NCBI GenBank assembly: GCA_947652925.1
Contig: CANTEW010000017.1
Location: forward strand, 1-49,162
Source: an uncultured Lachnospiraceae bacterium
GTDB taxonomy: Bacteria > Bacillota > Clostridia > Lachnospirales > Lachnospiraceae
Length of the DNA: 49,162 nt
Direction of reading: 5' to 3'
Shown here one piece after another: positions 37,497 to 48,086 of this stretch; positions within the stretch are counted from its first letter, which is position 1; every line of letters starts with the position of its first letter. The notes beneath the pieces are model-generated. The model saw only the letters and a list, made by a program, of their open reading frames with translations, did not search any database and was not told the DNA's origin. The position numbers were made by a program, and so were the translations under genes.

Positions 37497-39290
37497 ATGA
37501 AGAAGAAAAAGATTGATTCTATCCGTAAACAGATCCTGACAGGATACAAATGTGTGATCCTGGTGATGTGCCTGTTGGTGGTGATCTCTTTGATCTCCTT
37601 GATCCAGATCGGGCGTGATTATCATGTGGTCTCCGACAACCGAGACCATCAGGCAGATACTCAGTCAGCGCTGGCCAAACATTATGAATGGCTGGAGATG
37701 TATAAGGAGAGCATCTTGAATGGGACTGATTTTCAGGGGAGTCTGGATCCGACCACATGTCTCCTCGGGAAATGGATGGCCGGACTGGACGATAAGGATC
37801 TCGAGGATTCGATGATCAGCAACACACTGACGGTGATCAAAGAACCCCATCAGAACATGCACGAACGGGCCGCTGAGGTCCTGACACTGGCAGAGACAGA
37901 CAAGGAAGCCGCCAATGAGAGGTTTACCCAGGAGATCAAGCCATTGACGGAGCAGGTGATCGATGGGCTGGATAAGATCTCGACACGGTATCAGGAGATC
38001 GCGAACCAGGCTTCTGAAGAGTTGGATCGGCTGATCTTGATCATGATCATCTTGAATATCGTGAGCGCCCTGTTCGGGTTCGGGATTGCTGCATTCTATG
38101 GGAACCGATCTGCAAAACAGATCTCTGCGCCGATCACTGCTGTGGCCGAATGGTCAGAGAAACTGTCCATGGGCGCGGATCAGATCGTCTTCGATCAGGA
38201 GATCCTCAAAGGAAATGAAGATAATGAGATCGGGTCGATGATCTGTTCGTTCCAGCGGATGGTGGAGAGTATCCACGAGAATGTGGAAGTCGTGAAACGT
38301 CTTGCCCAGGGCGATATGACTGTGTTTGTGAATATCCGTTCTGACGAGGATTCTCTGGGGAGGAACCTGTATCATCTCGTGCAGTCTAATGATTTTATGT
38401 TCGCCAAGATCATCAAGATCGCTATGGCTGTGGCTTCTGCTTCCCAGGATATCGCGGATGCCAGTCAGAAATTGGCGGATACGGCATCGAAGCAGGCTTC
38501 GGCGGTCAATGAGCTGAACAGTTCTACGGATGAGACGAAGGAACTTGTGAAACAAAACAGCATCGAGATGCAGCATGCCACGGATCTTTCCCAGTCGATC
38601 CGGCAGGATATGCAGGACAGCAATGCGAAGATGGGATTGCTGGTGGAGTCGGTGGATGAGATCAACAGATCTTCCCAGAAGATCGCAAATGTCATCAAGC
38701 TGATCGACGATATCGCTTTCCAGACAAATATCCTTGCGCTGAACGCAGCAGTGGAGGCTGCCCGCGCCGGGGATGCCGGAAAAGGATTTGCCGTTGTCGC
38801 GGACGAGGTACGTGTCCTTGCACTTAAGAGCGCGGATGCTGCGAATGAGAGTAAGCAGCTGATCGAAGCCACGATGCATGCCACCAAGGATGGGAGCCAG
38901 ACCAGCTCAGAGGCGTTTGAGACATTCCGGCGTGTTGTGGAAGACCTTGACAGTATCATCGAGACGGTGGCCAATATCTCAAGATCCTCCCAGAAACAGG
39001 AGGATGCGATCTCACGTATACATACACAGGTTGAATTCATCAATGAATCCATCACATCGAACCTGTCTGTGAACCAGGAGGCAGCTGTTGTGAGCGGTGA
39101 GATGAGGAAGAATGCAAGCCTGCTGGAGGATGAGATGAACAAATTCAATCTCCGGCAGAGGACTATGGGGCATGCGTATATCCCGCCTGAAAAACAAAAT
39201 GACCAGGAGTTCATCCGCCAGGCGAATGAAAATTATCAGAAAGCTGTCAAAGGCGGCAATGGTGATATCTTTGGGACGCTGGATGTGTAA
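37497..39290 (+). CDS. Methyl-accepting chemotaxis protein with extracytoplasmic CZB zinc domain
   Basis: Membrane segment 1 is at about residues 17-37 and segment 2 at about 177-199. Between them is a chemoreceptor zinc-binding (CZB)-like region: His62, Cys88 in CLLGKW, and His118/His122 in EPHQNMH, the 3His-1Cys pattern of the family. HAMP (SAKQISAPI onward) is followed by a signalling coiled coil with hairpin tip [39 protein letters not shown]. Length 597. The protein probably senses zinc or an oxidant. It has its own promoter and terminator. Confidence 0.9.
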
Positions 39291-39306
39291 AAAAATATGG
39301 GATGGA

Positions 39307-39337
39307 GACTGTCGGGATGATTTTCCGGCAGTCTTTT
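39307..39337 (+). terminator. Intrinsic terminator after the chemoreceptor gene
   Basis: GACTGTCGG pairs with CCGGCAGTC (one G-T pair), a 9-bp stem with a 9-base loop, followed by TTTTC. Confidence 0.8.
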
Positions 39338-39387
39338 CATTTACTATAAGATCATGGTATATTATAGATGGATACTGCTTGAAGAAA

Positions 39388-39855
39388 ATGAAGAAACTTA
39401 TGGATAAATACAATACACAGATATCAAAAAATAACTATGCCAAAATCAAAGGGCAGGATATGACCCCGGAGGAGATGATCGGATTTCTGGAAGAAGGTGC
39501 GCTTTTCAGAAAATTTAGAAATATCCTGGAAACGGCTTATCCCGGGGAAGACCTCCCTTATAAACTTGCGAGAGGGTTATCTGAGATCACTGGGGTGGCA
39601 TACTCCAACGTGTTGCGCAAAGTGAATAACTGGCTGAAGAAAGACTGTGGGCCGAAGAGCCGGGAAGACCTTTTTCAGATCTGTTTTGTGCTGGGTCTTG
39701 GAGAGGAGGATTCCAGCCGTCTGTTGGCCAGTTCCTCTGAGAGCGGGATCCACTACAGAGATCCTAAGGAACTTATCTATGCGTTCGCGTTGCAGACAGA
39801 CCAGGATTATGATACGGCCGTCCGTTTGACAAAAGAGCTGGAGCCTATTTATTAG
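39388..39855 (+). CDS. Small helical protein of the kinase cassette (possible DNA-binding), unknown function
   Basis: 155 residues, cytoplasmic, no family recognised. The segment LARGLSEITGVAYSNVLRKV could be a helix-turn-helix. It is followed by SREDLFQICFVLGLGEEDSSRLL and by a motif GIHYRDPKELIYAFAL. A similar motif recurs in the next protein (GMELLDPGNAFDCLVLYAL), so the two share a domain. ATG 39388 is the first plausible start after the chemoreceptor terminator; ATG 39400 is possible too. No strong ribosome binding site is seen. It is followed after 6 bases by the 224-residue gene. Confidence 0.65.
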   Translation: MKKLMDKYNTQISKNNYAKIKGQDMTPEEMIGFLEEGALFRKFRNILETAYPGEDLPYKLARGLSEITGVAYSNVLRKVNNWLKKDCGPKSREDLFQICFVLGLGEEDSSRLLASSSESGIHYRDPKELIYAFALQTDQDYDTAVRLTKELEPIY

Positions 39856-39861
39856 GACCAG

Positions 39862-40536
39862 ATGAAAAAAGCGAAAAAGGGCTATACGCTCTATACCAAA
39901 CAACTCTGGAAAGAGTTCGCGGATATCCGGACGGAAGAAGCCCTCCGGAGTTTTTTTGTAGAACATGGAAGCTCTCTGGGCTCGATCCATGAGACGGCAT
40001 ATGAAAAATTCATGGGACTGCTGGGCAAGCTCCAGCGGCCAGCGGAGGACGAGGAAAAATACCCGATGGAGAGGGTGGTGGATGAATATTTCCAGATGCA
40101 TGTGCCGAAGACGAGAAAGTCAAGGGATTTTTCTTATCTGCAGAAAGTGATCAAGAAGAATTGGCCTTCCGAGAGCGAACTGACGAAGATGAAGAACCGG
40201 AAGATGGACGTGAGTAGGAAAGTGATGCTCCTTCTGTTCCTGATCACGGAGGATTATGGATATGATATGGTCGATGACGATTATTACGAAGACATGCTGG
40301 AGGAAGATCCAATGGAGTCTCTGGAGATACGGCTAAACAAGATTGACATTTTCCTGGGGAATTATGGGATGGAACTCTTGGATCCTGGCAATGCTTTTGA
40401 TTGTCTCGTCCTCTATGCACTGCGGGCTCAGGAACCAGAAGGGGCAGCCAGCGAGATGGTGGAGTCTGCCCTTAGGATCCTCTTTGACGGAATCGACATG
40501 CAAGATCCGCCATCGGACGATGATACAGTAGGATAA
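39862..40536 (+). CDS. Helical protein of the kinase cassette, unknown function
   Basis: 224 residues, mostly helical, no signal or membrane segment. The middle is basic (VIKKNWPSESELTKMKNRKMDVSRKVMLLLFLI). A stretch of acidic residues follows (DDDYYEDMLEEDP). The C-terminal half has LNKIDIFLGNYGMELLDPGNAFDCLVLYAL, a motif I associate with uncharacterised Lachnospiraceae proteins near kinases. ATG 39862 has TAGGA five bases upstream, overlapping the stop of the preceding gene. It leads by 22 bases into the kinase gene, so all three are likely one transcript. Confidence 0.7.
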   Translation: MKKAKKGYTLYTKQLWKEFADIRTEEALRSFFVEHGSSLGSIHETAYEKFMGLLGKLQRPAEDEEKYPMERVVDEYFQMHVPKTRKSRDFSYLQKVIKKNWPSESELTKMKNRKMDVSRKVMLLLFLITEDYGYDMVDDDYYEDMLEEDPMESLEIRLNKIDIFLGNYGMELLDPGNAFDCLVLYALRAQEPEGAASEMVESALRILFDGIDMQDPPSDDDTVG

Positions 40537-40558
40537 AAAATATATGGAGGTATATAAT

Positions 40559-41731
40559 TTGGACTATGAACGTCGTTTAAGGCAGCCGGGGGATGAGCTG
40601 GTGCTGGGTGGGATCGCCTATCGCCTGGAAGGAGTGGAAGGAAAAGGCGGCAGCGCCGTCATGTATCGGGCGGGATATGAGGATGAGCTGAATCGGGGTG
40701 TTTTTCATCAGGTTTACATAAAGGAGCTATTCTCAGTACAGGTAAACGGCTGTATATACAGGGATGAGGACGGGAATATCGTCTGTAGAGGAGAAGGACG
40801 TAAGCTCATGGAGTTTTCCAAGACACGCTTTAGGCAGGGAAATGCCGCTAACCTGGAACTTTTGCGGGAGATGCCTGCTGATATCTCGGGTAATATCAAT
40901 TCCTTTGAAAGTTATGGGACTTATTATTCAATCCTGTCGATCCATGGTGGGGAGGAGATGCAGCAGAAGCTGGAGAATGGTGGTGTGGTCGACCTGCGGG
41001 AAGCGGTTATGATCGTATGGAAGATCCTAGATGCGCTGGAGTGTTTCCATAGCCACGGACTCCTCCATCTGGATATCAGTCCGGATAATATCCTGTTGAC
41101 ACCCACTCAGGCGCTGCTCATCGACTACAACAGTATATGGCTGGCTTCGGATATAGAAAATCCAGATTTTGTCTTCAGTAATAAAGAGGGGTATTCTGCT
41201 CCGGAGGTCTTGTTGAGGAACGTGAGCTGTCTGGGGAGGGCTACGGATCTGTATTCTGTCTGTGCGGTCTTTTTCAGGATGCTGGCGGGCCGGATGTTGT
41301 CAGAAGAGGAGATTGTCGGGAACGGTCTAAAACGTTGTTTTGCAGAGGGTTTTCCTATCCTGGAGAGAGAACCGGGTTCGGCTAGACATAAAGTCATGCA
41401 GATATTGGCCAAAGGGCTCCACACTCTTGCAAAGAAGCACTATCAGACTGTCAAAGAGTTGCGTGCAGAGATACGGGAGCTCATAGATAGGATTGACAGA
41501 AAAGGCGTTTCGGAAGCTGCGATCTGGGAGAGCAGCCGGGCAGTCTTTCGCAGGATGAGAAAGGGCGGGGGAGACTTCCTGCCGCGTGTCCTCCGGGACA
41601 AAGAAGGACAGACTGGTCCGCTGCAACAGCTGAAAGACCGGCTGGAAGAGGGAGGGCTCTATCTGTTAAGAGGCGCTGGAGGCGTCGGAAAGACAAGGCT
41701 TTTGTCAGAAATCTGGGAACAGGGTGTATAG
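40559..41731 (+). CDS. N-terminal fragment: Ser/Thr protein kinase domain plus P-loop
   Basis: 390 residues from TTG 40559, chosen because GGAGGT is 7 bases upstream (ATG 40544 has none). The kinase domain is intact: Gly loop GKGGSAVMY, Lys in VYIKELF (about 55), catalytic loop HLDISPDNIL (about 170-179), metal motif IDYNS instead of DFG, and SAPEVLL. Helices follow, then LRGAGGVGKTRLL, where the fragment stops. Kinase activity could survive; NTPase activity cannot. See the pseudogene entry for the whole locus. Confidence 0.75.
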   Translation: MDYERRLRQPGDELVLGGIAYRLEGVEGKGGSAVMYRAGYEDELNRGVFHQVYIKELFSVQVNGCIYRDEDGNIVCRGEGRKLMEFSKTRFRQGNAANLELLREMPADISGNINSFESYGTYYSILSIHGGEEMQQKLENGGVVDLREAVMIVWKILDALECFHSHGLLHLDISPDNILLTPTQALLIDYNSIWLASDIENPDFVFSNKEGYSAPEVLLRNVSCLGRATDLYSVCAVFFRMLAGRMLSEEEIVGNGLKRCFAEGFPILEREPGSARHKVMQILAKGLHTLAKKHYQTVKELRAEIRELIDRIDRKGVSEAAIWESSRAVFRRMRKGGGDFLPRVLRDKEGQTGPLQQLKDRLEEGGLYLLRGAGGVGKTRLLSEIWEQGV

Positions 41732-41916
41732 AGATACCGTCCCAGAGCGGCGGTGGTCACATATATCTCCTTAAAGGAATACCAGACGGCGGGCGGTACG
41801 GCGGGATATATCCAAAACGTGCTGCTTAAGCGTCTGGATTTTGGCCGGGAGCATGAATATTACGAAGACGCTAGGCATATGCCCTACAGTCCTTTCGACT
41901 CGTTGAACTGCTCCCA

Positions 41917-44487
41917 TTGGAAGAAAAAGCCGTAAAGCAGGAGCTAAAGAAACAAGGACTCGCGATGCCGGAAAAGGAAGAAGTCACACAGCTCCTTGGA
42001 AATCCCATGATGCTCGCTCTCTATAAAGACATTATGAAGATGGGCAGGGAAAACCACGATCATTCCGTAGAAGAACAGATCCTCTGTTCGGCAGACGGGA
42101 TGGTGGAACTGTATCTGCAGGGCCTGTGCAGGACCCAGATGCGGGTAGACGCTGGGGATGAGAAGATACAGCTTGACCATCGGTATGTCATAGAGTATCT
42201 CCTGCCTAAGATTGCGGACGTGATGGCACAGAAAGACCGCACGGTGTTGTCCTTTGACGAACTGTACAAGATAGTCAGACAGAGTTGCCGTGATCTGCAG
42301 AAAAATATATTTGGGATTTGTTTTAGGGAATATCTGGGGAAATCCAGGGTAATGCTGGAAGGGATCGCTAATGAGTCAGAATGGTTCGATCTTACAGTGG
42401 GGGAGTTTCTCATCCGGGATCTGGATCTGTTGATACGGGGAGAAGGAGACAACTATCGGCTGCTCCATGACAGTTTTCTCCCATTTCTCGCAGAAAAAGG
42501 AAAAGAGCAGAGAAAGCTTCTTAAAAAACACAAAAACAGGAAGGATTTCTTTGTGGGTGTTCTTGCGCTGGCCGTCCTGCTCCCCTGTCTTTTGATCCTG
42601 CTGGATAAATGGCAAACTGCTGAAGATTACCGGGATATTGAAGAAAAGACCAGGCAGATCCAGGCGGACATTGAAGATGAAAAAATGTTCAGCGCCCTGT
42701 ACAAGATGAAAGATCTCCATATCTCTTACCCTGAAGAAAGATACTTTGGCCACATCCAGGAGCAGATCGGGCAAGATTATCTGAAGGCTGTTTACCGTGC
42801 CGCATTTACCCAGATGGAAGAAGTGGAGACCACGGGGCAGTACATAACCTTCGACCAGAGTGAGCAATATGTGATCGGATACGACTCCCCGGAAAATGGG
42901 ATTTTGTGTGTAGATATCTATGACCTTGAGTTGCAGCCGGTCAAGCAGATCGTTTTGAGATACAACTCTTTTTCAAGCAGGAGGCTTGTGGATCTTATTT
43001 CAATAAAAGAAAAAGAAATCCGGTTCGCCTATCGCGAAGCGGCACAGGAGATCCAGGTGACACTCCCTCGGAAAAAACTCATCTTCAATCTGCAGGGGGA
43101 GCTGCAGGGAGAATTTTTTGCCGAAGAAAAGGAAGAGGGTACATATGACTGGATCTTAGAGGCCTTTCCAGAGATCCTCAGTAAAAGATACAAATGGGAC
43201 AGTGCCTGTATCACTTTGGACAAACAGTATGCGATCGGAGTCAAAAATAAAGGGATCTATGCTTCAGATATTGAGATCCTTAATTTGGATACAGGGGAGA
43301 TGGAAGGATGTGTGTCAGATAATATAGGTTCCGTTAAGATCGATCTTACTTATTATGATACTTACGGCTGGGTCATGGCGGGCAATAATGGACATGATAA
43401 AAAACTCATATTGTCCGGTTTCACGATACCAGAAGGCAATATGCTGCGGGATTTTCGCAGTTTTACGTCTGAGTTGGAAGACGCCTTGACTCCGCAGTAC
43501 TTATACGGTAAAAACGGTATGGCCTATATCCTGGAACACCAGGCAGACCCAGAGCAGAAAAACACACTCCGTATGGTCACGACCAGGAATTGTTCTCTTG
43601 CAGAACGTTTTGATCAGAATGGTACGGATGCAAAGATAGACTTGGATCCAAATAAAAATTGTCTGATACCAGAAGAAAAAAAGAAAAGTATGAGCATAAA
43701 TGCCGTTGCTGACTATGAGTATAAAGCAAAAAGCACTGCGTTGACTGTCTCTTCCACGGCAGAGGTGCATAGATTTGGCTATGGGAGCAGTCAGTACAGC
43801 GGTGTGGATTTCTTATGTGCGATCGAAGGGTCTAACGGAGAGCAGTTGGTAGGATTTATGGCAGAGGGATTTTGGAATCCTTATTATAATGAAAAGGACC
43901 AGGTGTTTGGTTTTGTTGATCATAAAGCGGGCGAACAAAAAGAGGCGTACCGTCTGTATCCGTACCAGGAACTGGCTGGGATGCTCCAAGCGTCCGAGAC
44001 ACTTAAGCTGGGATCCTCCGTAGATCAGAGGGAAGAGCCGCTGCTTGAGAGCCGTCTGGACGAGAAGACAAAAATATTGCGTCTCAACGGGTATAGCGGG
44101 ACGGAAGGAGAGTCGGTCATCCTGATATCTAGCACGGTGGATGGCGTGGAAGTACGGGATATAGTGTCTGAAAACATGCCAAAAGGGCTGACCTATGCTC
44201 ATTATATCCATGACAGTGAGCTCACATATGAAGAGACAAAATATGGAGCGGGACTCGAGCTTACCGGATATGATGGATCATGTACCGGAGCATACACGCA
44301 CCTGATCATCCCGGACTCGGTGTTTGAGGGATGTTCTTTTTTGGAAAAGGTGGCCATACCAGAAAGTGTGAGCAAGATTGGTCCAAAGGCATTTCAAGGG
44401 TGTGCATTGACAAAAGTGGCCGTCAACAGAGAGTGTAAAGTGAATCCGACTGTGTTTGACGGACAGGTGGTCATCGACTATTATTAA
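41917..44487 (+). CDS. C-terminal fragment: NTPase helical part, membrane segment, sensor and BspA-like LRR end
   Basis: 856 residues opening at TTG 41917, which has no ribosome binding site. It begins in the middle of the NTPase (LPLEEKAV, LLGNPMMLALY), continues through helical repeats with LLHDSFLPFLAEK, one membrane segment at about residues 211-230, and a large extracytoplasmic region of beta-rich repeat-like sequence (about 270-790). The last 65 residues (LIIPDSVF, KVAIPESVSKIGPKAF) resemble a BspA-type leucine-rich repeat. Translation is doubtful because of the upstream stop and frameshift. Confidence 0.6.
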   Translation: MEEKAVKQELKKQGLAMPEKEEVTQLLGNPMMLALYKDIMKMGRENHDHSVEEQILCSADGMVELYLQGLCRTQMRVDAGDEKIQLDHRYVIEYLLPKIADVMAQKDRTVLSFDELYKIVRQSCRDLQKNIFGICFREYLGKSRVMLEGIANESEWFDLTVGEFLIRDLDLLIRGEGDNYRLLHDSFLPFLAEKGKEQRKLLKKHKNRKDFFVGVLALAVLLPCLLILLDKWQTAEDYRDIEEKTRQIQADIEDEKMFSALYKMKDLHISYPEERYFGHIQEQIGQDYLKAVYRAAFTQMEEVETTGQYITFDQSEQYVIGYDSPENGILCVDIYDLELQPVKQIVLRYNSFSSRRLVDLISIKEKEIRFAYREAAQEIQVTLPRKKLIFNLQGELQGEFFAEEKEEGTYDWILEAFPEILSKRYKWDSACITLDKQYAIGVKNKGIYASDIEILNLDTGEMEGCVSDNIGSVKIDLTYYDTYGWVMAGNNGHDKKLILSGFTIPEGNMLRDFRSFTSELEDALTPQYLYGKNGMAYILEHQADPEQKNTLRMVTTRNCSLAERFDQNGTDAKIDLDPNKNCLIPEEKKKSMSINAVADYEYKAKSTALTVSSTAEVHRFGYGSSQYSGVDFLCAIEGSNGEQLVGFMAEGFWNPYYNEKDQVFGFVDHKAGEQKEAYRLYPYQELAGMLQASETLKLGSSVDQREEPLLESRLDEKTKILRLNGYSGTEGESVILISSTVDGVEVRDIVSENMPKGLTYAHYIHDSELTYEETKYGAGLELTGYDGSCTGAYTHLIIPDSVFEGCSFLEKVAIPESVSKIGPKAFQGCALTKVAVNRECKVNPTVFDGQVVIDYY

Positions 44488-44497
44488 ATGAGGATAG

Positions 44498-44548
44498 AAA
44501 AAAGAGCTTATAAAGTGCGTTTGTGACTGCATTTTATCGGCTCTTTTT
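44498..44548 (+). terminator. Intrinsic terminator after the kinase cassette
   Basis: AAAAAAGAGC and GCTCTTTTT form the base of a long hairpin with inner ATAAAGTGC / GCATTTTAT pairing, ending in a T-run. Confidence 0.75.
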
Positions 44549-44674
44549 GTTTGGGGTCTGATGGGGCTTGGAGGCGGAATGAAGATGCAGGATGTGTAAG
44601 ATACAGAATGTAAGATAGGTCCATACGGACCAAAGGTTCCAAGAACACTTGGAAATGGAAGAGGAGAGGACAGG

Positions 44675-44938: not shown

Positions 44939-45251
44939 TCTCGATCATCTTCAGTATTTTTTCTTTTTTCTGGCAGTCGCAGTCCTCTAGGACCCTCATG
45001 ATCTCTCTGTCCAGGGCCAGGGATGGATCTTCGTACTGGTCGGACAGGAGAAAATCGATGGAGGTATGGAGAGGATTTGCCACTGCCAGGAGGGTGTTAA
45101 GGCTGACTTTTGTATGGTTATTTTCAATATTGCTGATGTGTGATGTATTGCAGCCTACCATTTCTGCGAGATTGTCTTGGGTCAGCCCTCTGTGTTGGCG
45201 AATTTCTTTTATCCGGAGACCAAGATTGCCATAATCAATTTCCTGCCGCAG
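44931..45251 (-). CDS. XRE-family transcriptional regulator with probable CTG start
   Basis: The visible ATG at 45161 would cut the HTH domain. The frame continues upstream with RIKEIRQHRGLTQDNLAEMVGCNTSHISNIEN, a complete Cro/C1-type helix-turn-helix, to a stop just before CTG 45249-45251. AAGGTG sits 6 bases before that CTG, so I call CTG as start (106 residues). ATT at 45239 would give the usual MDYGNLG-like beginning and may be the degenerated ancestral start. It is convergent with the 87-residue gene and divergent from the large secreted protein. Confidence 0.65.
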   Translation of the reverse strand: MRQEIDYGNLGLRIKEIRQHRGLTQDNLAEMVGCNTSHISNIENNHTKVSLNTLLAVANPLHTSIDFLLSDQYEDPSLALDREIMRVLEDCDCQKKEKILKMIEIM

Positions 45252-45386
45252 TTAGAACACCTTCTTTCGTGTATATTTTTGTCTGCAAATAATAAAAGGG
45301 GGCAAAAGATGAGAGGAAAAAGAAGGATGTGGAGATACAAAAAATTTATGGAAAATATCCATCAAAAGATAGGGAGGAGAGAGGAT

Positions 45387-48086
45387 ATGAGAAAGGAAAA
45401 GATGAAAAAGAGGATAATGGCAGCAATGATAGTATGTACGATGTGTGCAGAGACATTACCGACAGTTACATATGCGGGAGAGCTGGGAAATGGGGGAACA
45501 CAGATCATTGAAAATGAAGACGCATCTGCTGAAATGTCGGGAGTCGTTGAAGATATAGAGTCTCAGGCATCCGGGTCGACTGAACATTACAGCATGTCTG
45601 TAGGGGATATAAAATATCTTTATACAAACGCGAGCGGAAAAGCGGTCACTGATGCAGTATGGACTTCCAGCGATATGGAGAGCGTGGAGATCCTGGAGCA
45701 GAACAGCGTTTCTTGCCGGATCCAGGTAAAAGCTTACAGATCCAGTACACCGGTCATCATCCAGTGCTTATATTACTATAATGAATTGCGCAATGGCTAT
45801 ATCTATCGCCGAAGTGATATCACAGATTATTACATCGATGTCCAGAGACCAAAAGACATAACAGTCTATTTGGAAGCAAATGGAGGAGACATCTCAACAG
45901 AGAGTCTGTCTTTCCAGCCGGGAGAAGCTTACGGAAATCTCCCTGTACCCTCCAGGTACGGATATACTTTCAAAGGCTGGTATACTGAAAGTACAGGCGG
46001 GACCAGAGTGAGCAAAACGACTAAGAGTAAAACAGTCGACCATACTATATATGCACATTGGGATGAAAATGTCTATTCTATAGTGTTTGATGGAAATGGG
46101 AATACGGGTGGGAGTATGTCCGATATGACAGGATGTCTGTTTGGGAGTAGTTATACATTAAGAGTTAATTCGTTTACTAGGGAAGGGTATATATTTTCAG
46201 GGTGGAATACAGCTGCTGATGGGACAGGAAAGAGTTATGAAGATAAAGGATCGGTATTAGACCTGGCATCGGGTGGGAGCGTTACCTTATATGCTGTCTG
46301 GAAGTTAGAGACTAAGGATATCGCAGAGTGTGAGGTCACGCTGGAGTCAAGATCTTACATATATGATGGAACGGCTAAAGTCCCTCAGGTCGTTGTGAAA
46401 GATGGAGAGACTGTCCTCCTAGAAAATGAAGATTATACATTGTCTTATTCAGATAATACAAAGGCAGGCACCGCCAGTGTTACTGTTACGGGCATAGGGA
46501 GTCATTCTGGACAGATAACAAAAAATTTTACGATCTATAAAGCAGCTCAGGATCTAGAAGTGAGTTTGGATCGGTCTTCGATTAAAATAGGGGAGAGTGC
46601 CATGTTCACAGTCCATGGGAAGGGGGCGCTCTCATTTCTGTCTGAGGATCCATCGATCGCTGATGTTGACTCGGAAGGAAAAGTCACCGGCATTTCAGCA
46701 GGGCAGACAAAGATCACGGTGCAGGCGACTGGTGATGATGATCACGAAGAAGCGAGCTGCTCGATCACAGTAAATGTTACGGTAGATAGAACGGAGAGCG
46801 GAACGGCGCTCTCGACCTGCGAGATAACTTTGGATATATCCAGTCATACCTACGATGGAACAGCTAAGACTCCTGAGGTATCTGTAAAAAGTGGAAATAC
46901 AATATTGAAAAAAGATATTGATCATAGAGTAGGATATTCAAATAATACAAATGTCGGGACAGCGTCTGTCATAATCAAAGGTTTGGGTTCTTATAGCGGG
47001 ACTGTTACAAAAACATTTGTGATCAATAAAGCAAAACAAAAGATTAAAATAAACATATCGGCCGCACAGGTCATTGTTGGAAAAACGGTGGTGATCAAAG
47101 CTTCTGGCTATGGGACTATTTCCTACAGATCGGACGACAGTAGTATAGCCAAGGTAGATGGTTCCGGGACTGTTACAGGCATTGCGCCGGGTACGACGGA
47201 TATTACAGTGAGGGCAGAAGGGGGGCGGAATCATCAAGCTGGTATAAAAAAGGTCACAGTGACAGTGAAAGATACTGCAGAAAATCTCAGCAGTCCTTCA
47301 TTGAAAACTGTAGTCAATAAAAATGGCGGGGTCTTCTTCCGTTGGGGTAAGGTAAAAGATACAGAAAAATATTATATATATCGGAAAATAGGAACTCAAA
47401 ATTGGAAATATATAGGGAATACAACAGATACATCATATTTTGACAGGCAAGTATCAAGTGGGACTGCCTATGTATACACGGTGGCGGCAGTTGCTGGGGA
47501 TATGCAGAGTGCCTATGATAGGAAGGGGCTTGATATTGTATACTTATCTGTTCCATCCATATCTTCCATATCCAGCTTGTCTTCGGGGGTGTCTATTACC
47601 TGGGATACTGTGAAAGGGGCATCTGCTTATCAGATCTATAGAGATAACAGATGGGTCAAAACAGTCTATCCAAATGATAAGAACAATTATATAGATCGGA
47701 CTGCCCGGAAAAATGGTAGAAAATATACGTACAAGGTACGTGCATGCAAAGGGGATTCGCAAAGCGTTGTCTCGCCTGCAAAGATCACATATTATCTGCG
47801 CCGTCCATCCGCCTTAAAATTGAAGAGGTCATCTAGACAGAGATTTTTGCTCACGTGGAGTCGGGATAGAAAGGCGACAGGATACGAGGTCGTGTATAGT
47901 ACAAATAGGTATTTTACCAGTGGAGTGACCAGAAAGACTATATATAAGAACAGGATAACATCTATGAAAAGCCCCAGACTGTCTAAAGGGCAGACATATT
48001 ATGTGAAGATCCGGGCTTATAAAAAAGTTTTCGGGATCAAGTATTATTCTAAGTGGATGCAGACAAGGGTTAGGATCGCAAAATGA
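45387..48086 (+). CDS. Secreted multi-domain repeat protein (InlB B-repeats, Ig-like domains, FnIII)
   Basis: 899 residues with signal peptide (cleavage after VTYA, about residue 31). Domain order: two Listeria-Bacteroides (InlB B-type) repeats about residues 155-310 (GYTFKGWYTES, GYIFSGWNTAADG); two tandem units about 310-480 and 480-630, each of a YDGTAK-type module and a Big_2-like Ig domain (VTGISAGQTKITV, VTGIAPGTTDITV); and three FnIII-like domains to the end. No LPxTG, SLH or other anchor is visible. ATG 45387 has GGAGGAGAGAGG upstream; ATG 45309 is possible. A cell-surface or adhesion role is likely. Confidence 0.8.
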   Translation: MRKEKMKKRIMAAMIVCTMCAETLPTVTYAGELGNGGTQIIENEDASAEMSGVVEDIESQASGSTEHYSMSVGDIKYLYTNASGKAVTDAVWTSSDMESVEILEQNSVSCRIQVKAYRSSTPVIIQCLYYYNELRNGYIYRRSDITDYYIDVQRPKDITVYLEANGGDISTESLSFQPGEAYGNLPVPSRYGYTFKGWYTESTGGTRVSKTTKSKTVDHTIYAHWDENVYSIVFDGNGNTGGSMSDMTGCLFGSSYTLRVNSFTREGYIFSGWNTAADGTGKSYEDKGSVLDLASGGSVTLYAVWKLETKDIAECEVTLESRSYIYDGTAKVPQVVVKDGETVLLENEDYTLSYSDNTKAGTASVTVTGIGSHSGQITKNFTIYKAAQDLEVSLDRSSIKIGESAMFTVHGKGALSFLSEDPSIADVDSEGKVTGISAGQTKITVQATGDDDHEEASCSITVNVTVDRTESGTALSTCEITLDISSHTYDGTAKTPEVSVKSGNTILKKDIDHRVGYSNNTNVGTASVIIKGLGSYSGTVTKTFVINKAKQKIKINISAAQVIVGKTVVIKASGYGTISYRSDDSSIAKVDGSGTVTGIAPGTTDITVRAEGGRNHQAGIKKVTVTVKDTAENLSSPSLKTVVNKNGGVFFRWGKVKDTEKYYIYRKIGTQNWKYIGNTTDTSYFDRQVSSGTAYVYTVAAVAGDMQSAYDRKGLDIVYLSVPSISSISSLSSGVSITWDTVKGASAYQIYRDNRWVKTVYPNDKNNYIDRTARKNGRKYTYKVRACKGDSQSVVSPAKITYYLRRPSALKLKRSSRQRFLLTWSRDRKATGYEVVYSTNRYFTSGVTRKTIYKNRITSMKSPRLSKGQTYYVKIRAYKKVFGIKYYSKWMQTRVRIAK

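Follow-up and report, generated by a model that had tools for sequence, protein, structure and literature searches.

The locus at positions 39,388 to 44,487 of a 49,162-nucleotide stretch of DNA from an uncultured Lachnospiraceae bacterium (contig CANTEW010000017.1; the whole stretch is called the window below) is probably a decayed copy of a conserved operon of two genes. The first gene encodes a partner protein whose first half resembles a helix-turn-helix (HTH) domain, and the second a receptor that joins a Ser/Thr kinase, a nucleoside triphosphatase (NTPase), a membrane segment and a sensor predicted to lie outside the cell. A sequence-only reading of the locus had described a three-gene cassette, in which two related small proteins precede the receptor; there are instead two genes, and both are broken in this genome.

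A partner gene divided by a stop codon

The partner gene lies in the window as follows:
39388–39855, + strand: N-terminal half of the partner gene, with the HTH-like domain (155 residues; in-frame TAG at the end)
39853–39855, + strand: in-frame TAG dividing the partner gene, the single TAG within the profile match
39862–40536, + strand: C-terminal half of the partner gene (224 residues; 57% identity to the intact relative L022)

The two small open reading frames (ORFs), ORF1 and ORF2, are halves of one gene and not two genes, because they share a frame, have only the TAG at 39853–39855 and two codons between them, and correspond to one complete ORF in 74 of 79 related loci. In the profile search, the window matches the partner profile as one continuous stretch containing that TAG. 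Homologues of ORF2 occur in seven of 199 other genomes of the family, all seven of which carry both halves as one ORF of 371–473 residues. The 79 loci come from the best 80 of 107 partner relatives and include some close pairs, and records of the window's own genome were possibly left out; the partner is split in three of them (L030, L044 and L046) and truncated by a contig edge in two (L045 and L050). No named family scores above cut-off for the partner in Pfam or NCBIfam, and PADLOC returns nothing convincing. The structure model of ORF2 is all-helical (predicted local distance difference test score, pLDDT, 86) and has no confident fold match.

A receptor kinase gene in three pieces

The receptor gene follows directly:
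40544–41731, + strand: piece 1, Ser/Thr kinase with catalytic residues, then a P-loop (in-frame TAG at 41729–41731 at the end)
41732–41935, + strand: piece 2, continuation of the NTPase in the frame of piece 1, reaching a deletion and frame change near 41875
41875–44487, + strand: piece 3, in a different frame, with the end of the NTPase, a helical region, the membrane segment and the ectodomain
42547–42603, + strand: single membrane segment (mean hydropathy 3.01; basic stretch before it)
42604–44487, + strand: predicted extracellular sensor, with LRR_5 near its end at about 44308–44433

The sequence-only reading had taken this gene for one large protein; its Ser/Thr kinase, P-loop, single membrane segment and leucine-rich repeats (LRR) are all present, but not in one ORF. 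The kinase piece matches Pkinase in Pfam (E 4.4e-18, 66.1 bits against a cut-off of 31.7) and has the motifs VYIKEL, HLDISPDN and LIDYNS, corresponding to the catalytic Lys, HxD..N and DxN/DFG. The P-loop of the NTPase reads GAGGVGKT, and a Pfam scan of the pieces gives no NACHT match. The ectodomain, with its C-terminal LRR_5 match (E 5.8e-7), is predicted to lie outside because a basic stretch precedes the membrane segment.

At the break, all 28 relatives in which the three pieces can be aligned have 53–64 extra residues (median 60), a cruder count giving 40–74. The stretch lost from the window receptor contains Walker B in the aligned relatives L016 and L017, and a pattern search of the window pieces and of all forward frames of 41681–42100 gives no Walker B-like motif. 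Among relative kinases longer than 900 residues, the Walker B pattern is present in 43 of 48 and the P-loop pattern in 42 of 48. The receptor cannot be made as a single protein in this genome, and the pathway is therefore probably dead here; what could still be produced is no more than a soluble kinase and the partner as two separate halves.

Two other explanations of the broken frames have to be weighed against decay. It is quite unlikely that the locus represents three working genes, with the partner fissioned at its domain boundary into two subunits, the kinase shortened to a soluble form and the membrane sensor made separately. The position of the partner TAG in the variable linker between the halves, an AGGA stretch just upstream of the ORF2 ATG and a complete kinase domain with its catalytic residues would all suit such an arrangement, but the partner is a single ORF in nearly all related loci, both genes are broken together in L030, and the second stop, the frame change and the loss of Walker B, found together in the receptor, fit decay. 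Errors of assembly or sequencing in an operon that is intact in the living strain are distinctly improbable: although the sequence comes from a single draft genome of 100 contigs and other species have intact copies, there are three distinct defects, including the loss of about 60 residues, in a genome rated 98% complete with 0.7% contamination. Amber recoding of both internal TAGs was also considered and is unlikely, since TAG is a normal stop in the window and there is a deletion with frame change too. TAG terminates 11 of the 35 non-overlapping window ORFs of at least 150 residues, not all of which need be genes, and both suspect stops are among the 11.

The conserved operon in related genomes

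The relatives of the operon, where a group is named, point to Lachnospiraceae, Oscillospiraceae and other Clostridia. A kinase ORF lies directly downstream of the partner in 69 of the 79 loci (median gap 69 nucleotides), directly upstream in one and 2.8–4.2 kb downstream in six; two loci end too early for a placement, and L036 has no kinase within 8 kb of the partner. As a control, a kinase occupies the same position for 7 of 693 other genes of the same loci. The proposal that the small proteins belong with such kinases is thus borne out, their homologues lying mostly beside such kinases and not away from them. In the window's own genome, a second, distant partner homologue (L101:3489–4856, on contig C87) lies on a 6.2-kb contig on which no kinase was found, and another contig of 12.8 kb (C67; L174–L176 and L179) carries four of the ten Ser/Thr kinase matches found genome-wide.

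The survey of kinases and exported genes covers the 64 complete kinases only and uses home-made rules for lipobox and hydropathy. Complete kinases are mostly near 980 residues; all three kinase motifs are recognised by pattern in 55 of the 64, and 35 have a membrane segment above a simple hydropathy threshold. By motifs, the commonest architecture is kinase-NACHT-membrane-ectodomain, so that the plan read from the window alone is that of intact relatives. Among six long kinases scanned with Pfam, NACHT is above cut-off in three (L017, L027 and L041) and NB-ARC in L016; L080 is below cut-off and L023 has no listed match. In a second group, near 640 residues, no NACHT is listed and Big_2 occurs in two of three scanned.

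In 51 loci it was possible to assign the gene that follows the kinase; its product has a hydrophobic start in 45 of them and a lipobox in 28. Thirteen of the 51 proteins are homologous to the ectodomain of the longer kinase L080, a fusion which suggests that the exported protein may work together with the receptor. L080 (9325–13335) and its relatives L075, L081 and L087 are very long receptor kinases of 1264–1406 residues.

Sensors seem to be exchanged between receptor types, judging from the window ectodomain: none of the ORFs in the 79 loci is homologous to it, and one relative genome has a homologue of it on a TIR-membrane gene. This ectodomain has other matches in 61 of 200 genomes, most of them short and LRR-like. 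The TIR-membrane gene (L130:5777–8067, contig C1 of genome G028) is itself frame-broken between membrane segment and ectodomain.

Variant loci have also been observed (L053, L054, L055, L057, L083, L093 and L044) in which the partner lies near a kinase together with genes that read as PP2C- and/or FHA-like. Near the partner, PP2C is above the Pfam cut-off in L057 and L108 and FHA in L083; the L044 fragment and the FHA-like gene of L057 are not. Such PP2C and FHA genes fit phosphorylation signalling.

The HTH-like domain and its probable repetition

A possible helix-turn-helix had been noticed in the first small protein, and the first half of the partner does belong to an unnamed family of about 150 residues resembling repressor-type HTH domains. 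ORF1 matches the model of this single-domain family with an E-value of 4.2e-5 (among the ORFs of 12 loci). The modelled fold of residues 58–137 may be comparable to that of XRE or lambda-repressor-like HTH domains. HTH models remain below the Pfam cut-off, the best among 10 single-domain relatives reaching 20.4 bits against 27 (HTH_31), and none is above cut-off for ORF1.

Matches to the single-domain profile occur in 78 of 150 family genomes, in some cases to longer proteins, and kinase adjacency was checked for a subset. A kinase lies within 700 nucleotides in 33 of 38 single-domain loci, head-to-head in 20; these loci are mostly the best-scoring ones, having been returned for the best 30 of the 78 matching genomes, and the counts leave out L141 and L142, which are the same places as L139 and L137. 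To avoid circularity, the kinase model behind these counts was built only from operons with partners of about 400 residues. The counts from a wider kinase model, which drew in part on ORFs from these same loci, are not used; in a control on 11 other loci and the window's first 39 kb it gave no kinase match. In the window's own genome, a single-domain HTH-like gene that appears intact is arranged head-to-head with a gene for a 360-residue kinase (L181:4681–6263, contig C9).

The second half of the partner is probably a degenerate repeat of its HTH-like first half, as profile comparisons suggest. Compared directly with hhalign, the two halves give a probability of 6.6%, or 1.2% with a shorter C-terminal half and 12.3% with another cut, and one of 100 column shuffles scored at least as high; column shuffling destroys helix periodicity and is thus a lenient null. 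The single-domain family against the C-terminal half gives 38% in local and 10% in end-to-end alignment (48% and 5% with a shorter cut) and scores above all 100 column shuffles. One distant kinase-adjacent relative matches the single-domain family in both halves, with E-values of 7.9e-12 and 1.2e-9 relative to a set of about 90 sequences, and in five genomes two single-domain matches fall within what looks like one ORF. The motif that had been taken to relate two small proteins is therefore at best an old degenerate repeat inside one protein: the local alignment of the single-domain family to the second half does cover it, but the direct half-against-half comparison is weak.

Where the second half starts, one Thr (residue 201 of L022) is invariant in 70 of 70 aligned rows, four of 74 proteins (L034, L057, L064 and L085) having been left out as judged near-duplicates. 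It could be a phosphosite, or merely a helix cap.

A proposed receptor-kinase pathway with a dedicated partner

From the observed gene order, co-occurrence, architecture and breakage we infer, as the somewhat more probable interpretation overall, a pathway in which a receptor kinase acts on its own dedicated HTH partner and of which the window holds a probably decayed operon; its inferred steps are the sensing of a ligand, a switch in the NACHT part, partner phosphorylation and DNA binding. Gene 1 would provide a helical protein of about 400 residues with a repressor-like HTH domain and its probable degenerate repeat, and gene 2 a receptor with a cytoplasmic Ser/Thr kinase, a NACHT-type NTPase switch, one membrane segment and an extracellular sensor, to which many relatives appear to add a third, exported gene. 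In intact copies, the ectodomain, often aided by the exported third protein, would bind an extracellular ligand, and the NACHT part would then change its nucleotide-dependent assembly. The kinase, thus switched on, would phosphorylate the HTH partner, whose DNA binding, and with it transcription, may be altered.

An NLR-like conflict or anti-phage system, in which the NACHT receptor would sense an invader, the kinase act as an effector that stops growth and the HTH partner act as repressor, is unlikely. The combination of kinase, NACHT and variable sensor does resemble the effector-STAND-sensor plan as set out in PMC10907252, and the presence of the window sensor on a TIR-membrane gene points the same way. 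The kinase piece also matches PADLOC kinase models such as PD-T4-6 (E 1.1e-21, over the kinase domain only and with no cut-off given), and sensor turnover and recurrent breakage (in the window, L030, L044 and L046) would fit an arms race. The surroundings, however, offer little: a defence island had been suggested as something to look for, and PADLOC on seven neighbouring window proteins revealed no clear defence system, its only matches being a small HTH protein and an ATPase (mad3, E 9.5e-41) that looks like part of an ABC transporter. The intact partner relative L022 is also unmatched at E 0.001 in 50,697 phage and 72,556 plasmid records, and a sensor predicted outside, with a next gene that is often exported, suits external signals better than intracellular phage proteins.

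HipB, the antitoxin of the HipBA module, is an HTH protein, and a HipBA-like toxin-antitoxin module of HTH antitoxin and kinase toxin has to be considered here, very improbable as it is. Against it stand a kinase of the Pkinase family with no HipA family listed for it, the presence of receptor parts, and the head-to-head orientation that is commonest in single-domain pairs. What recommends it is the plan of hipBA itself, in which a Ser/Thr kinase toxin and a small antitoxin are encoded side by side (PMC6581861).

Beyond the receptor-kinase pathway itself, it is tentatively proposed, with rather less confidence, that one-to-one Ser/Thr signalling pairs form a large unnamed class in Clostridia, in which an HTH-like partner, single or doubled, lies beside its own kinase and many of the kinases are NACHT-switched receptors. 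If true, such pairs would be the Ser/Thr counterpart of two-component systems.

Comparison with known systems

Hanks-type kinases with extracellular sensors (PknB/PrkC, with PASTA domains) share with the present receptors a cytoplasmic kinase, one membrane segment, a sensor predicted outside and the retention of catalytic residues. The PknB_PASTA_kin model is far under its cut-off here (64.4 against 450 bits for relative L017), and the inserted NACHT and the dedicated HTH-like neighbour also set these receptors apart. Known bacterial Ser/Thr kinases are described in PMC4601284 as few per genome, with targets that are pleiotropic rather than exclusive. Two-component pairs likewise have a sensor kinase gene beside one dedicated DNA-binding-like partner, and their way of working may be similar, by analogy; they differ in that a Ser/Thr kinase is used here and that Pfam lists no receiver domain in the partners scanned.

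The likeness to STAND/NACHT NTPases, including antiviral STANDs and bacterial NACHT systems, consists in a NACHT or NB-ARC match in four of the six long relatives; the differences are an N-terminal kinase that is apparently active and a membrane-spanning form, together with the lack of Walker B in the window copy. NTP-dependent conflict-system kinases likewise combine kinase and NTPase modules in one system, according to PMC7159879 (eLife 2020). The same paper places them in actinobacteria, rarely in chloroflexi, with catalytic residues mostly disrupted, whereas the kinases considered here are clostridial and keep all three motifs in most cases. Relative L017 also falls well short of the equivalog model for MAD6, the MADS kinase (78.5 against 460 bits). 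The partner may resemble XRE and lambda-repressor-like HTH proteins in its modelled fold and differs from them by scores below the Pfam cut-offs, an extra conserved motif after the HTH, frequent doubling and adjacency to a kinase.

Both the kinase part and the NACHT part are of known kinds, and the pairs have a fair chance of being an undescribed class; a literature search, with subscription journals largely outside it, found no description of this kinase-HTH pair. A kinase whose DNA-binding-like partner is fixed and genetically linked to it would allow signal, kinase and target to be tested together, and, if the proposal holds, membrane receptor kinases of gut bacteria would have a NACHT module built into them. 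Being broken, the copy in the window carries little weight in this respect.

Probable transcription unit and neighbouring genes

Two hairpins frame the locus:
39300–39342, + strand: terminator-like hairpin after the upstream chemoreceptor gene (-21.6 kcal/mol, z -6.1)
44496–44553, + strand: terminator-like hairpin of the operon (-22.3 kcal/mol, z -5.7)

With a strong hairpin after the chemoreceptor gene and another after the set, partner and receptor probably form a separate transcription unit, and the terminator attributed to the set in the sequence-only reading is supported by the second hairpin. A pattern scan for terminators picked up neither of them, and promoter pattern matches are no better than chance (6 against a shuffle mean of 7.0). 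Immediately upstream, at 37497–39290 on the + strand, lies the gene for a chemoreceptor with a zinc-binding CZB domain. At 45177–48086, on the same strand, a large surface protein with Listeria-Bacteroides repeats and Big_2 is encoded, with a sub-threshold match to fn3.

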